The position numbers and the translations under genes are program-made. Below the pieces are notes generated by a model that had not been told where the DNA came from, did no database searches, and saw only the letters and a program-made list of their open reading frames with translations. A stretch of DNA of 64,000 nt, from contig NZ_OY762512.1 of the NCBI RefSeq assembly GCF_963665995.1, forward strand, positions 3,286,001-3,350,000, in the 5' to 3' direction. Below, piece after piece: positions 429 through 5,496 of the stretch; position 1 is the stretch's first letter; every line of letters begins with the position of its first letter. The DNA comes from Pleurocapsa sp. FMAR1 (lineage in GTDB: Bacteria > Cyanobacteriota > Cyanobacteriia > Cyanobacteriales > Xenococcaceae).

Positions 429-746
429 TGTACATTAAATGATTATTTGTCAATTTTAAAGAATTAGCGTCACAAATTACAATCGGCTACAAGCCCTTCA
501 TAATAAAGCTTGTAGCTTTTATCATACTCCAATAGACTAAAACTAGATTTAAAGAATTAAATGTCAATTCTTTTCCAAGACATTTTTGACTTTAAAAAAT
601 AAGTGTCAATTTTTTCACTGTTTTATTGCTATCTGAAATACTCAATATATTAAGAAACACAATAAAGCCCATAATCCTTATTTTGAAAGAGCTTTAATAG
701 TTTTTTCAAGCTCAAATAATAAGTTTGTTTAAATAATTAAATGTCA
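429..746 (+). repeat. Array-distal CAST end with TnsB-site-like repeats
   Basis: The terminus TGTACATTAAA starts at 429. Copies of an AT-rich motif ending in GTCA follow in one orientation: 442-452 (ATTATTTGTCA), 461-472 (GAATTAGCGTCA), 554-566 (GAATTAAATGTCA), 598-608 (AATAAGTGTCA form) and 733-746 (ATAATTAAATGTCA). Known V-K CAST ends have the same architecture: TGTACA followed by several degenerate binding sites for the transposase TnsB. A motif in the opposite orientation lies at 1077-1090 (CGACAATTATTTAA); whether it belongs to this end is unclear. No coding sequence is visible in 183-824. Confidence 0.8.
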
Positions 747-824
747 AAATTTGATGTTGATTTGAGAAAATTTCAGCGATCGCCAGGAAGTTACCGACAA
801 CAAATGCTACGTCGATAGTATTTA

Positions 825-1030
825 ACCTGAGTTCGGGATAAGAAAAGGGACAAGTAGTAAGCTTAAAATAATAACAAATTCAGTAAACCTGTCCTATATT
901 TAGTTTAGATGCTTTGTTTTGTAATGTAGATGATTTTTGTCTTCATTTTGAACCTGAATGGCAGAAAAAGTTGCTAAATCATGAAGGAATAAAAAGATGT
1001 AGAGCCAGAAGAATTAGGAAAAATCTCTAA
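825..1030 (+). pseudogene. IS982-family transposase, N-terminal remnant
   Basis: From 896 the frame reads (I)FSLDALFCNVDDFC, then LHFEPEWQKKLLNH, and stops at 1028-1030. This resembles the N-terminus of IS982-type transposases (FSLDALF-VDDFC-FEP-W). The expected ATG is ATA here, and only about 45 codons remain. The sequence ACCTGAGTTCGGG at 825 may be the terminal repeat of the element. It is a dead fragment nested inside the CAST. The family assignment rests on recalled motif similarity. Confidence 0.5.
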
Positions 1031-1117
1031 CCAGGGAGAAACCAAGCATAATAAAAGAGTTGGTTGAATAATTAAACGACAATTATTTAAGACATTTTTC
1101 CATCCAGTTGGAGCATT

Positions 1118-1456
1118 CTATTCAAGATGAGAAGCCCAGTTAAAGTTGCTCTGCTCTATTTCTAAACTAGAGATATTAGATGGGCTCAAAGACAAAAAAG
1201 CTTCAGTATTTAAACTAATCATCAAATAAGCATTCATGATGATTTCCCACCATTTACTAATCTCATCAAATTTGGTAAATCTGTAATTAGTCGGGCCTAG
1301 CTCTTGCTTGCATTGTCGAAAGCCATATTCAACCCATGTTCTCAGTCCATATAAGTTACCAAGAGTTTTTTTCATTTTGTTTCTAGTCTCTTGAAGATTA
1401 GTCATAACAAAAGAAGTTGAATTCTCTGGAATAGTTTCAGGATCGGTAGTTATTTC
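1118..1456 (-). pseudogene. IS701/IS4-type DDE transposase, C-terminal remnant
   Basis: The minus-strand frame is open from 1456 to the stop at 1118-1120. It contains PENSTSFVMTNL, YGLRTWVEYGFRQCKQELG, YRFTKFDEISKWWEI and AYLMISL. These are the C-terminal hallmarks of the cyanobacterial DDE transposases grouped with IS701, including the conserved YGLR-W-E-GF-Q-K-ELG block holding the last acidic residue. The frame is closed by TAG at 1457-1459, exactly where similarity ends, so the N-terminal two thirds are gone. The break abuts the truncated cysteine desulfurase, which suggests one insertion-deletion event removed the starts of both genes. Confidence 0.8.
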
Positions 1457-1459
1457 CTA

Positions 1460-2302
1460 GTAAGTTCTTTCTTTTCTCGTGCCAAAAAAGGGTTAGCCGA
1501 TATTATTAGTCTCCAGGTTGATTCTCTTGGCAGATTAGACTTAGAATATCTCGAACAAGTCTGCAAACAACGACTATCTCTGCTATGTGTCATGGCAGCA
1601 AATAACGAAATTGCTAATATTTACCCCATTCGAGAAATTGGTGAAATAGCTCAAAAATATAATATTCCTTTTCTTGGCGATGCTTCTCCAGCAGTAGGAA
1701 AAATACCAATCGACTTTGAACAATGGGGAATTACTTATCTAGCAATCTCTGGTCATAAATTTTACGCTCCCAAAGGAATAGGAGCATTAATTGTCAGAAA
1801 AGGAGATCATCTAGAACCGATTATCTTTGGTGGTGGTCATCAAAAAGGATTGCGATCGCGAACGTTTAATGTACCTGGTATTGTGGGTTTGAGTGAAGCC
1901 TGTCGATTAAGAATGTTGGAAATGGAAGAAGATGAACAAGCGATTACACGACTACGGGATAAATTACAGAATCTGCTTCAAGAAAAAATCCCCAATCAAG
2001 TTGTCAACGGCGATCTAACTTCTCGACTCGCTGGAAACCTCCATATTTCTATCCCAGGGATTCCCAATAGTGCCGTTCTTGCTAGAATCCGCGCTCACCT
2101 GGCAATTTCTACTGGATCGGCTTGTTCTTCTGGAGTTGCAGCACCATCTCATGTCTTGAGAGCGATGAATCTACCCGAAGAACTAATCGCAGGCTCGCTC
2201 AGAATCGGTTTGGGGAAATTTACTACTGAAGAAGAAATAATACAATCCGCAGAAATTATTTCTGATGCTGTAAAAAAAATTGATCGCTTGATGTCGGTGT
2301 AA
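1460..2302 (+). pseudogene. Cysteine desulfurase (NifS/IscS type), 5'-truncated
   Basis: The frame from about 1523 matches class V PLP-dependent desulfurases: VDSLGRLDLEYLEQ, MAANNEIANIYPI, a DASPAVGK segment, the PLP lysine in SGHKFYAPKG, and the active-site cysteine in STGSACSSG. The best ATG (1592) lies inside the conserved fold, so about 120-150 N-terminal residues of a normal protein of about 390 are missing, including part of the cofactor site. A product could be made from 1592 but should not be a complete enzyme. It fills the place where transposition genes or cargo of the CAST would be, next to the IS701-type remnant. Confidence 0.8.
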
Positions 2303-2305
2303 TTA

Positions 2306-2800
2306 CTAATCTTTGGGTTTCCTTTGACCTCTTTTTAACCTTTCTAACTGTCTCTGTCTAAGTTCTTCAGCTATTCGCATATCAGTTAACTCTTCTCGGT
2401 CGAAAACCAAACCCTCTAATTTAACCAGGTATCCAGCTAATTTCTTAATCTCTTCATCAGTCGGGCGATCGCCTGACAATAATTTTTTCAGCCTACTGAC
2501 AGAAATTTTGGTTTCTTTTGCTAAATGCTTCAAACCCCAGTCTGGATTATCTAAAGTTTTCTCGATTGCAGTGGAGATCGTAGGTAGCGAAGAAAAAGTT
2601 AAATCTTCTTGAAAAGAATTCTGTGATCGCCGTTCCGTAGATTGTTCTTGCTTGCTAATCCAATCCTTAACAGCTTCCTCTAGAGTCTCATTTATATTTT
2701 GTCCTACTTTCTTGGAGGCAGCCTTGAACTCCATGGTCAGTGACTTAGGAATAAATCCCCTCAATTCCTTATATTCAGATGATCTACGTTTATCTACCAC
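2306..2800 (-). CDS. Putative DNA-binding repressor (ribbon-helix-helix plus helix-turn-helix)
   Basis: A 164-residue protein with a GTG start at 2800; an in-frame stop lies just upstream. Residues 8-50 (ELRGFIPKSLTMEFKAASKK, then VGQNINETLEEAV) look like an Arc-type ribbon-helix-helix. Residues 90-125 (LKHLAKETKISVSRLKKLL) look like an XRE-type helix-turn-helix. The tail is basic. The gene is divergent from the ORF72-cas12k group, with palindromes between them. V-K CASTs usually carry a repressor in this position (MerR-type CvkR in some, other HTH proteins in others). Control of cas12k is inferred from position. The reading frame looks intact although the effector is broken. Confidence 0.65.
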   Translation of the reverse strand: MVDKRRSSEYKELRGFIPKSLTMEFKAASKKVGQNINETLEEAVKDWISKQEQSTERRSQNSFQEDLTFSSLPTISTAIEKTLDNPDWGLKHLAKETKISVSRLKKLLSGDRPTDEEIKKLAGYLVKLEGLVFDREELTDMRIAEELRQRQLERLKRGQRKPKD

Positions 2801-2867
2801 TCGCTATTTATCTACCAATATCGCTCATACTCCATTTTCTCACATGATTTCGTAGACAAATTAATAA

Positions 2868-2898
2868 CGCTATTATAGCGATATAAAATATATTGCTA
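2868..2898. promoter_or_regulatory. Overlapping palindromes, candidate CAST operator
   Basis: CGCTATTATAGCG (2868-2880) is a perfect hyphenated palindrome. It overlaps a 23-bp inverted repeat at 2876-2898 whose arms are TAGCGATATA and TATATTGCTA, with one mismatch. Both sit between the repressor-like gene and the rightward gene at 2972, where an autoregulated divergent operator would be expected. They do not fit the AnnACATnATGTnnT site reported for the MerR-type CvkR, in keeping with the different regulator here. Confidence 0.5.
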
Positions 2899-2971
2899 TT
2901 ATTGCTAATTTTTTGTATATTTATCCTATCGATCGCCAGAGTAAGCTATTCGTGAGATCGCAGCTTGAACT

Positions 2972-3445
2972 ATGAATCAATCCATCAAAAATAATTTGCC
3001 TCAGAATACGGCTTTGCCTAATCTTGCTGAAAATTTGGGCATTAAAAAGTTACAAACAAAGATTTCCTATTTGTATAGGCTAGAAAAAACAGAAGAAATT
3101 CATTTATTAACTGCATTGTTCGTAGAGCATCTGGCAGATAATTTGGAATTAATCCAGAAACCTACGCAGATAGAAAATAGCGAACTTTTACCACTGACTT
3201 GCTTTCCCAGTCTTCCGATTAATTTTCCTGACAGCGCAGAAATGCCACTTTTTCTTTATGGAGACAAAGTTGATCATGAATCGATAGAAGATTATGGAAT
3301 TGTAATTGGTCGTTTTTATGCCATCGATCGCTCTATCAATCAGTGGCGGTGGAAATATCTAATTCTTAACAACGCAGATTTTACAATTAATTCTTTTTTC
3401 TCTAGTTGTATTTGTTGGGAAACAGAACTTGAGCCTTTAGATTGA
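2972..3445 (+). CDS. Unknown protein encoded directly upstream of cas12k
   Basis: A 157-residue ORF with an ATG start that ends 9 bp before the cas12k start, so the two were probably co-transcribed. I do not recognise the family. The N-terminal half is rich in Leu, Glu and Lys and probably helical (LEKTEEIHLLTALFVEHLADN). The C-terminal half is aromatic and beta-like (IGRFYAIDRSINQWRWKYLI). There is no signal peptide, membrane helix or metal motif. It does not resemble TniQ, TnsC or Cas12k. It may be a CAST accessory or a chance cargo gene. The frame is undamaged. Confidence 0.6.
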   Translation: MNQSIKNNLPQNTALPNLAENLGIKKLQTKISYLYRLEKTEEIHLLTALFVEHLADNLELIQKPTQIENSELLPLTCFPSLPINFPDSAEMPLFLYGDKVDHESIEDYGIVIGRFYAIDRSINQWRWKYLILNNADFTINSFFSSCICWETELEPLD

Positions 3446-3454
3446 GATAAAACT

Positions 3455-4267
3455 ATGGCTGTTATTAGCATTCAATGTCTTCTACAGGCTACAGAAGAAA
3501 CTCTTCACTATCTGTGGAACTTGATGATAGAACAAAACACTTTATTGGTAAGTGAAATCTTAGAAAAGATTAAAACTCATCCAGAATTAGATGTATGGAT
3601 AGTTCAAGGATATATTCCAGTTGAGAAGATCGATAAAATTGCCAAACAACTCAAGCAACAACCAAAATATGATGGAATGCCTGGTAGATTTAGTACTTCC
3701 GCTAAAACGCTAGTCAAAAATATTTACAAATCTTGGTTTGTCGTTCAGAGAAAGAAAAGAAACCAAAGAAGGAGAAAAAAGTGAAAAAGCACACTCAGTA
3801 CGAACTGTTTCTCAGACGCAGACAGCAGCAACAAGATAATGATGCCAAGAGACAACAGGCAAATAACGAAATTTGCCGATAATCGTTTTGGAGAATCGGA
3901 ATTAGGTCAGTATGTCGATCGCCTGTTAGCGAAAGCAATAGTAGAAATAGCAATCCAATATAGAGTAAACAGTATTGTTCTGCCCGATTTTCAAAATGCC
4001 AGGGAAATTCTAGATAGCGAAATACAGGCTAAAGCAGAGGCGAAGATACCTGGATGTAGAAAGACTCAAAAACAATATGCTAAAGATTTTCGCCAAAGCA
4101 TTCATCGCTGGAGCTATGCTCGTTTGTGTGATGCGATCGCGTCAAAAGCGACTCAAAAAGGTATTGCTATAGAATGCGAGCGCCAATTATTCAATGAAAT
4201 ACCTGAAATACAAGCACGAGATTTAGCTTTAACTGCCTATCGTAATCGTCAAAAAACCACAGGGTAG
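3455..4267 (+). pseudogene. cas12k: cas12k, internally deleted and frameshifted
   Basis: Three pieces align in order with the type V-K effector. Piece 1 (3455-3784) is the N-terminus: MAVISIQCLLQATEE, YLWNLMIEQNTLLVSEIL, PGRFSTSAKTLVKNIYKSW; it ends at TGA 3782-3784 in a lysine-rich stretch. Piece 2 (3781-3882, another frame) reads QYELFLRRRQQQQ, matching the YELLNRQRRQQQ region. Piece 3 (about 3870-4267) reads NRFGESELGQYVDRLLAKAI, SIVLPD, QYAKDFRQSIHRWSYARL, the typical C-terminus. About 270 codons remain of a protein of about 640; roughly 360-370 residues are deleted, including the first RuvC-like segment. Cas12k binds the guide and target without cutting and recruits TnsC/TniQ; this copy cannot. 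It is followed by the tracrRNA locus in the usual order. Confidence 0.88.
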
Positions 4268-4328
4268 ACCGCAGCTTTTAAACATTTCTTATAGTTTTTT
4301 TGTACCTAGATAATTTATTATTGAAGTA

Positions 4329-4808
4329 ATATGCGCCGTATATTCCAATCTGGAATTACGATAAGTGTGGGGTTGTTTGGCTGTTTAGAAAGCAGTCGTA
4401 CTTTCTGACCTTTTGTAGCTACTAGCTCACAGTGCTTGATTCAGTTAAGCAAAGCATTTCACTCTTGATGAACAACTTTGTTGATGAAAAGTACGTTTGC
4501 TGCCAATTCTGCGTTCTAGTTGCGGATTGGGAAAAAACTATTTTAGAAAATACTCGTTGTTCTCTATTATAGTCTAGTTTGCGCCACCAGCAAATGAGTT
4601 GATTGATAGGGGAAGGACACTTTATCAGTCAAGCTTACAAACTATTTTATAAGATACGTCTGTGTAAGTCTAAATGATTTATATGCCCTTATAAAGACCA
4701 AAGGTTTGTAAGTATAGCTCTGACTCAAGAATCATTTAACTATGATGTTCGGGGTACGAATATATCGTCTTGTGGCTACGTTTTCACCCCTTCGTGGGGA
4801 ACTTTTCC
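4329..4808 (+). ncRNA. V-K tracrRNA-like locus, interrupted
   Basis: Two blocks match my recollection of the V-K tracrRNA. The 5' block (about 4329-4430) has ATGCGCCG, GGGGTTGTTTGGCTG, GCAGTCGTACTTTCTGACC and GTAGCTACTAGCTCAC. The 3' block (about 4750-4808) has GGGGTACGAATATA, TTGTGGCTACG and the hairpin CACCCCTTCGTGGGG, then AACTTTTCC. AACTTTTCC (4800-4808) can pair with GGAAGATGTT of the CRISPR repeat, as an anti-repeat should. CTTTC at 4401-4405 can pair with the repeat's terminal GAAAG. The blocks are about 320 nt apart, far more than usual, so the RNA is probably disrupted. The stretch 4809-5016 up to the array shows no gene; GTCGAA at 4818-4823 may be a second anti-repeat. Confidence 0.7.
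4628..4723. repeat. Inverted repeat inserted within the tracrRNA locus
   Basis: CTTACAAAC (4634-4642) and GTTTGTAAG (4704-4712) are exact inverted copies. TTATAAG/CTTATAA lie inside them and AGTCA/TGACT outside. The unit could be a small MITE-like insertion or a long hairpin. It lies within the DNA that separates the two conserved tracrRNA blocks. Confidence 0.45.
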
Positions 4809-5016
4809 TACAAATCTGTCGAACCTAAGCATGGGCGAAACTCCTAGTAGGCTCAACAGAAACTACAAAACCTTTATCTGTTCTTGCTTCTACAAATCAT
4901 AGCCAACAAAAGCAATCTATTTTTAGCTGTTATTTTGATTTATTTAGAAGAACATTTTCTACCTTTGGCAGAAGTAACGGTCAAGGCTCTTGTTAAAAAA
5001 GGTTTAGAAGGGCGGA

Positions 5017-5195
5017 GTTGCTTCGACTCTCCCGATGTGGAAGATGTTGAAAGAGGACAAAACCTTTTATTATGCTTTATTTGTTAATTGTTGCTTCGAC
5101 TCTCCCAATGTGGAAGATGTTGAAAAAGGATGTATTCAAGCATCCCCGATCCTGTTATGTTGCTTCGACTCTGCCGATGCGGGAGATGTTGAGAT
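5017..5195 (+). CRISPR. Short V-K CRISPR array, three repeats
   Basis: Three 37-nt repeats start GTTGCTTCGACTCT and the first ends GTTGAAAG: R1 5017-5053, R2 5090-5126 (C to A inside, last base A) and R3 5159-5195 (several changes, ending GAGAT). Spacer 1 is 5054-5089 (36 nt) and spacer 2 is 5127-5158 (32 nt). The 3' GTTGAAAG ending is shared with V-K repeats. The array lies downstream of cas12k and the tracrRNA on the same strand, the usual V-K order. R3 is the degenerate terminal repeat and leads into the homing guide. No cas1/cas2 is present, as is normal for V-K. Confidence 0.85.
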
Positions 5196-5231
5196 TATTG
5201 GAAAAGTTGAAAGGAGCAGAGGACTGAAAAC
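5196..5231 (+). ncRNA. Homing guide against tRNA-Phe (delocalised short spacer)
   Basis: After the degenerate repeat R3 a second repeat ending, GTTGAAAG, lies at 5206-5213. It is followed by GAGCAGAGGACTGAAAA (5214-5230), identical over 17 nt to residues 22-38 of the tRNA-Phe gene (complement of 5459-5475). The match then stops (CTT against TCC). The protospacer is preceded by GTA, fitting the V-K GTN PAM. V-K CASTs are known to carry such an atypical repeat plus a 17-20-nt spacer that steers insertion next to tRNA genes. It is probably processed with R3 as an extended repeat. Matching length, PAM and spacing together make chance very unlikely. Confidence 0.88.
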
Positions 5232-5253
5232 TTATAAACGCAGTCCTATTTTT

Positions 5254-5411
5254 TGACATTAATTCTTTAAATCTGATTTTTTTAGCAAAAATATTTGCAA
5301 TCTAGTCATAGGAAAACACATTTATAGGCTCAAACACCTATAAAATCGTTCAAGCCATGCAGTTTTTTGACATTAATTATTTAAAACTGACAAATAATTC
5401 TTTAATGTACA
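5254..5411 (-). repeat. Array-proximal CAST end with TnsB-site-like repeats
   Basis: Read inward from 5411 on the minus strand the end is TGTACATTAAAG followed by three motif copies: complement of 5388-5404 (AATTATTTGTCA), of 5368-5383 (TAATTAATGTCA) and of 5254-5269 (GAATTAATGTCA). The first 44 nt match the other end at 38 positions. The terminus is 12 bp beyond the 3' end of tRNA-Phe and 64 bp from the PAM of the homing protospacer. The end begins about 20 bp after the homing guide. Confidence 0.85.
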
Positions 5412-5423
5412 ATATATCTAAAA

Positions 5424-5496
5424 TGCCGGGAGGCAGACTTGAACTGCCGACACGAGGATTTTCAGTCCTCTGCTCTACCACCTGAGCTATCCTGGC
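5424..5496 (-). tRNA. trnF: tRNA-Phe(GAA)
   Basis: A 73-nt cloverleaf: acceptor GCCAGGA/TCCCGGC, D arm GCTC/GAGC, anticodon stem GAGGA/TCCTC with anticodon GAA, T stem GGCAG/CTGCC and discriminator A. CCA is not encoded. Acceptor pair 4-69 is A against C, a mismatch that is unusual for tRNA-Phe. The gene is the target of the CAST homing guide and was left intact because insertion fell just past its 3' end. An inverted repeat GCAAACT/AGTTTGC (5525-5546) lies upstream of it. Confidence 0.93.

Follow-up and report, generated by a model that had tools for sequence, protein, structure and literature searches.

We asked how an element that ends beside a tRNA-Phe gene in the window (the whole 64,000-nucleotide stretch of Pleurocapsa sp. 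FMAR1 DNA analysed here) came to lie there, and whether an RNA guide that it still carries brought it to this site. An earlier note on this DNA had claimed a 17-nt identity between guide and tRNA gene, and the match is exact: the homing guide, or anchor spacer, GAGCAGAGGACTGAAAA (5214-5230, plus strand) is the complement of the protospacer at 5459-5475 (minus strand). Recomputation likewise gave GTA as the PAM (5476-5478, minus strand), fitting GTN, and returned the claimed 64 bp between this PAM and the transposon terminus at 5411. Protospacer and PAM both lie inside the target, a complete and intact tRNA-Phe (GAA) gene identified by a tRNA call (5424-5496, minus strand). In the 5.43-Mb genome (5,429,540 bases) GAGCAGAGGACTGAAAA is present at two places only, the guide and its target, and the expectation for an exact 17-mer within 300 nt is about 2e-8; we therefore ruled out a chance match. 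The placing of the guide behind the third array repeat had to be corrected, since that repeat occupies 5159-5195, and the GTTGAAAG before the guide instead ends a separate truncated homing repeat, R* (GGAAAAGTTGAAAG, 5200-5213, plus strand), which begins 4 nt past the last array repeat, fits the R* of the literature and is identical in two further loci, L012 (Xenococcaceae cyanobacterium MO_188.B29) and L013. The 60-66 bp spacing given in that note for V-K insertion agrees with E. coli assays. Natural type V-K elements show PAM-to-end distances of 46-82 nt, and their anchor spacers combine a 17-nt guide, a truncated repeat R*, a GTN PAM and tRNA targets (PMC9938897, available text); the window has the truncated repeat, the 17-nt guide, the GTN PAM, the tRNA target and a distance within 46-82 nt. 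The element is, in our assessment, very probably a decayed type V-K CAST remnant that homed to tRNA-Phe.

The remnant measures 4,983 bp from end to end (429-5411) and carries TGTACA at both tips (5406-5411 and, in inverted orientation, 429-434), within inverted arms of 49 nt (428-476 and 5364-5412) that are 86% complementary. Its left, tRNA-proximal end (5249-5411, plus strand) carries repeated TTTTTTGACATTAATTNTTTAAA motifs before the final TGTACA, so that inverted TGTACA ends and internal repeats, as expected of V-K ends, are both present. The right, distal end (429-614, plus strand) forms the inverted repeat with the left end and is homologous to the far end of the element in a related genome, G244 (78% identity over 189 nt). 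Between the ends, cas12k is present but broken: an N-terminal piece (3455-3784, plus strand; V_Cas12k profile positions 2-107 of 629) and a C-terminal piece (3839-4267, plus strand; positions 503-629) stand in order with the middle, about 390 profile positions, gone. Three 37-nt repeats follow cas12k as a CRISPR array (5017-5195, plus strand; repeats at 5017-5053, 5090-5126 and 5159-5195, the last diverged). A short match of spacer 1 to 1039-1064 was taken as chance. The putative tracrRNA region (4300-5016, plus strand) lies between cas12k and the array, is like the L012 sequence by eye and folds with a z-score of -2.25 (1 of 20 shuffles as stable or more); it has no Rfam match and is assigned by position and pairing alone. 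From the regulator described below onward, L012 has the same order as the window, with an open cas12k of 664 aa and with array, R*, guide and left end all of this kind.

Directly upstream of cas12k lies a 157-aa protein (2972-3445, plus strand) that was matched in 5 of 27 family genomes (its own and the query genome counted), with homologues at L012 973-1455, G175:C229:41732-42004 and G259:C199:18339-18803; it abuts cas12k in four of these genomes, the fifth being G149. The window copy has no Pfam match and neither it nor the L012 copy has an NCBIfam match, and the protein belongs to one V-K lineage, conserved before cas12k. Next to it, in reverse orientation, stands a small regulator-like protein of 164 aa (2306-2800, minus strand) with a weak HTH_3 match just under the cut-off; the L012 protein at the same place is 71% identical, the L075 counterpart is alike by eye, and neither counterpart has a Pfam match. 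A cysteine desulfurase (NifS/DndA-like; 1421-2302, plus strand), truncated at its N-terminus, is probable cargo; its matches to Pfam PF00266, TIGR03402 and PADLOC DndA cover 1592-2302, and a longer copy adjoins a like regulator in G175 (L075 4289-5464). In G268 (L048, before 1000), what appears by eye to be a C-terminal piece of a like desulfurase abuts a tRNA-Phe fragment. An IS701-family transposase fragment (1118-1405, minus strand), probably a later insertion, matches NCBIfam NF033540 with E 2.5e-10, which is under the curated cut-off and spans profile positions 309-361 of 363 only. Also inside the element, at about 812-913, is a dispersed repeat with five further partial copies in the genome (80-96% identical).

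We then turned to the relatives for the same guide and site. The family set comprised 27 genomes, the window's own (G000) included, all of which matched the tRNA-Phe query. The 17-mer was present in 20 of the 27 and absent from 7; 13 genomes carry it just once, as part of the tRNA gene, and 7 (G000 among them) have one or two further copies each, eight in total, all of which adjoin a V-K left end. The search of related genomes proposed by the earlier note thus recovered the guide beside V-K ends, and the case that it had named as damaging, a 17-mer shared by ancestry outside the tRNA gene and without transposon ends, was seen in none of the 27 family genomes. Across 291 genomes of the order, the guide directly after GTTGAAAG was found in five, and a V-K left end adjoins each of these copies. 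V-K ends lie at tRNA-Phe in nine family genomes, 56-75 bp from the PAM: with the guide present, the distance is 64 bp in G000, 62 in G162, 56 in G086, 75 in G175 and 57 in G244; the ends are doubled in G268 (63 or 57 bp) and G207 (73 or 67 bp); and G217 (57 bp) and G263 (63 bp) have a V-K left end at tRNA-Phe with no guide found within 1,500 nt, up to 4 mismatches allowed. The 17-mer of G175 is preceded by CCCCAAGAAAT, with no recognisable R*. Two end types, TTTAATGTACA and GTCACTGTACA, occur at tRNA-Phe, and because PAM-to-end distances and end types differ at the same tRNA, the sequences point to several insertions, the site having probably been hit repeatedly by elements of both types.

Other features of these sites were noted in passing. 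Doubled termini, for example TGTACATGTACA or TGTACAGTACA, stand by tRNA-Phe at the left-end junctions of L030, L025, L021 and L033 and resemble what a previous insertion there would have left behind. The neighbouring tRNA-Phe in L013 is a 3' half only, so that 12 of the 17 protospacer bases are left and the PAM is gone. Variant tRNA-Phe protospacers occur in G120, G233, G249 and G254 (3 changes) and in G135 (1 change) (L029, L032, L031, L043 and L023), and TGTACA does not occur within 200 nt of tRNA-Phe in any of the five (0/5 with a V-K end); we do not claim that such variants escape the guide, 0/5 being too small a sample.

Tn7-like insertion produces a 5-bp target-site duplication. At the window element, the five bases before 429 are CCATT and those after 5411 are ATATA, so that no duplication is present, and the left flank is moaA (named by eye), which lies away from tRNA-Phe in relatives (about 230 kb away in G103). 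For both reasons the far junction is probably rearranged, and the tRNA-side junction is the only one preserved. The statement that guide, target and product survive together accordingly holds for the tRNA-side (left) end; it fails for the right-end flank, which shows no duplication and is not beside tRNA-Phe in relatives. A search for an empty tRNA-Phe site was similarly divided: no relative with both flanks was found, and G103 was rejected as an empty site since a Phage_integrase gene adjoins the same tRNA-Phe, but the displaced tRNA fragment of that genome (L047) has a similar 3' flank, which agrees with a junction at 5411/5412 and is no proof of it.

RNA-guided insertion at tRNA-Phe, which had been called almost certain, is supported, by the same guide and site in family genomes, as the best explanation of the tRNA-side junction. 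In its strongest competitor the element came by another route (TnsB and TnsC inserting it off target, recombination involving a different CAST copy, or joint transfer of element and tRNA), and the guide match is merely inherited. The absent target-site duplication and the non-syntenic distal flank fit such an origin, as do the cointegrates and many off-site insertions that V-K elements form in E. coli (PMC11406308, available text). We nevertheless consider it quite unlikely, as the tRNA-side distance and PAM match guided insertion, and the differing distances and end types of the relatives suggest separate insertions at the same site.

A second possibility, that the relic is a non-autonomous element still movable in trans by V-K machinery, draws on the joint presence of both ends, the tracrRNA region, R* and guide. 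The machinery itself, however, is broken or missing in this copy. TnsB, TnsC and TniQ were absent from the window in tblastn searches with the Gloeothece verrucosa plasmid CAST proteins (none at E <0.1; best E values 0.17, 4.7 and 0.25, respectively), which did match two control loci. We rejected the idea of an intact V-K system at another place in the genome, where searches gave no further cas12k match and a single TnsB-like match, 27% identical. Mobility in trans is therefore very unlikely in our view. Searches with the Pfam models for TniQ and Mu-transpos_C gave no hits and are uninformative because no control gave a hit either. When 15 chosen genomes were surveyed with the Gloeothece verrucosa TnsB as query, 14 matched; the best identity was 41-48% in G263, G207, G268, G162, G175 and G244, 36% in G217 and 25% in G086, and G259 had no match. 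Together with the 27% of the window's own genome, the low values and the missing match in this survey indicate that TnsB loss is not special to the window. As tnsB, tnsC and tniQ were not found inside it, we class the element as a remnant and not as a working member, and judge it from its gene content to be an immobile relic.

tRNA-Phe 3'-half fragments ending within the anticodon stem occur at L047 (near 1547), L079 (12225-13379), L082 (2163-2204), L013 (669), L044 (434), L048 (1024) and, in the window's own genome, G000:C1:3704162. In G103, where the Phage_integrase gene adjoins the full tRNA-Phe, a tRNA-Phe fragment lies 27 kb away, and integrative islands seem, by these sequences, to share tRNA-Phe with V-K elements. 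A protein by the L082 fragment was dropped as a candidate integrase for want of a Pfam match. That the 17-nt guide match is itself a stray fragment of this kind, such as are found in several family genomes, has a negligible probability: the fragments span the anticodon stem to the tRNA 3' end (about 42-59 nt) without the PAM-side bases, whereas the guide starts exactly past the PAM and runs for 17 nt after R*, as at other tRNA genes, and its fixed length and start in other loci contradict a stray origin.

Under homing to tRNA-Phe, R* and the 17-nt guide, once transcribed, would join the tracrRNA through R*-AR2 pairing (AR2 being the tracrRNA site described below) and assemble with Cas12k; the complex would bind the anticodon region of tRNA-Phe beside the GTA PAM, and TniQ, TnsC and TnsB would place the element 64 bp away from this PAM, immediately beyond the tRNA 3' end, so that the tRNA stays whole. 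This copy would afterwards have lost the middle of cas12k along with tnsB, tnsC and tniQ, gained the IS701 fragment and been rearranged on its far side. The homing principle is the same as in the delocalised crRNA homing of V-K CASTs reportedly described by Saito et al. 2021 (Cell), the window being a natural relic and not a working system. Like the V-K CASTs in the available text of PMC9938897, the window has a 17-nt guide after a truncated repeat (~12 nt there) near the left end, a GTN PAM, a tRNA target, an array pointing to the left end and a reverse-oriented small protein by cas12k. Unlike them, it has a cas12k deleted in the middle and no tnsB, tnsC or tniQ found, and its R* lies only 4 nt past the last array repeat, not clearly apart; its reverse-oriented protein has 164 aa and a weak HTH_3 match, compared with 53-72 aa for the Arc types there. 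Degenerated cas12k genes are also reported in that work. Since anchor spacer, R*, GTN PAM and tRNA homing are already published, the homing mode of the window relic is not new. The element, whose repeats (GTTGCTTCGACTCT...) and tracrRNA region are unlike those of the common V-K type, possibly belongs to the lineage of V-K_V2, the subgroup of Ziemann et al. 2025 that has alternative tracrRNAs and is known here from the editorial description in PMC13383573.

Next, we compared how R* and the array repeat pair with the tracrRNA. In the window, the first nine bases of R* (GGAAAAGTT, 5200-5208) are fully complementary to AR2, AACTTTTCC (4800-4808, plus strand; 9/9 Watson-Crick pairs), directly 3' of a GC hairpin, CCCC-TTCGT-GGGG (4787-4799, plus strand), and a like hairpin precedes AR2 in most other V-K loci examined. 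Array repeat 1 is predicted to form its whole-repeat duplex at a site separate from AR2, just before the array (4951-4980; -26.5 kcal/mol), where AACATTTTCTAC (4951-4962, plus strand) is predicted to pair with the 3' portion of the repeat. Cas12k was matched in 104 of 388 genomes of the order, and we oriented 88 V-K loci, 80 picked among the matches listed and mostly near full length, plus 8 family tRNA-Phe elements; some, at least L150 and L198, are short or end at contig ends. A guide with a GTN PAM was found in 55 of the 88 and in none of the remaining 33; the commonest match length was 17 nt (33/55), and the PAM is no independent evidence in these 55 loci because the search script required GTN. 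Fifty-three of the 55 guides have at least 14 matching nt, 45 of the 53 also come with a recognisable array, and AR2 could be placed in 43 of these from the 16 nt before the site (context score >=0.70; L200 and G086 dropped). Reference contexts were sites first found by R* pairing in other loci, used leave-one-out, so that the R* of the locus itself had no influence on placement, though the R* of other loci did; the site was allowed to shift by one base so that its start became AA/AG and C/T.

Across the 43 loci, R* was the better partner of AR2 in 32, the array repeat was in 4, and the two were equal in 7 (one-sided sign test, 1e-6), compared with 31/5/7 before the one-base adjustment and 26/4/7 among 37 unique triples (3e-5). 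All nine Watson-Crick pairs were formed by R* in 18/43 loci and by the array repeat in 0/43; with wobble allowed, the mismatch-free counts were 25/43 and 7/43, respectively. With each repeat free to pair wherever it fitted best within the 700 nt preceding the array, R* came out ahead in 35 of 45 loci, behind in 4 and level in 6. At position 4 the array repeat has a mismatch in 29 of 43 loci (T-T in 18, C-A in 8, others in 3), where R* forms an A-T or T-A pair in 40; in the window the array-repeat mismatches fall at positions 2 and 6, not 4. Position 1 counts against the advantage of R*, with mismatches in 11 loci for R* and 5 for the array repeat. In 20,000 trials that shuffled AR2 between loci, the observed pairing was never reached for R* or for array repeats, which shows that both covary with AR2 and that relatedness contributes. 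A Cas12k tree of 40 loci (of the 43, three with <400 aa were left out, the window among them) implied about 5 changes of the AR2 base facing position 4 and 3 changes of R*; position 4 was not Watson-Crick at 3 tips for R* and at 31 tips, with 7 changes, for the array repeat. So few changes mean few independent events.

Together, these comparisons suggest that the homing guide, through its R*, suits the V-K tracrRNA better than ordinary array guides do. The Cas12k RNA duplex is described as a long, bulged repeat/anti-repeat stem (PMC11246509, available text), and its bulge may be the array-repeat mismatch seen here. More tentatively, and with somewhat more doubt than confidence, we propose that the V-K tracrRNA is tuned to the homing guide: AR2 and R* would covary as a clean helix, and array repeats would keep a mismatch (at position 4 of the nine in most loci, U-U or C-A, and at position 6 in the window lineage, U-U) that separates two classes of guide, homing guides being favoured and array guides weakened. 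A separate repeat form for a guide class is also known from type I-F3b CASTs, whose atypical repeats categorise guides, but those systems are Cascade-based and have no tracrRNA (PMC11406308, available text). We found no report of the difference between R* and array repeat in a literature search that included PMC12719977 and the available text of PMC11246509; as the works that bear on it most directly (Saito 2021, Hsieh and Peters 2021 and Ziemann 2025) lay outside the scope of this search, we do not claim the difference as new.

The comparison of R* and AR2 offers a cheap, concrete test of how V-K systems choose between homing and array guides, and it bears on the choice of repeat in building CAST tools. 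V-K elements are reported to categorise crRNAs, with the att-site crRNA explaining nearly all natural insertions (PMC11406308, available text), and CAST V-K to depend on CRISPR for homing and jumping alike (PMC10293859, available text). If true, guide sorting would help explain why the att-site guide accounts for nearly all natural V-K insertions. The window itself holds a clean record, left by nature, of homing guided by RNA: guide, PAM, target and the end on the tRNA side have outlasted the dead machinery, so that the homing history of V-K elements can be read from their relics.
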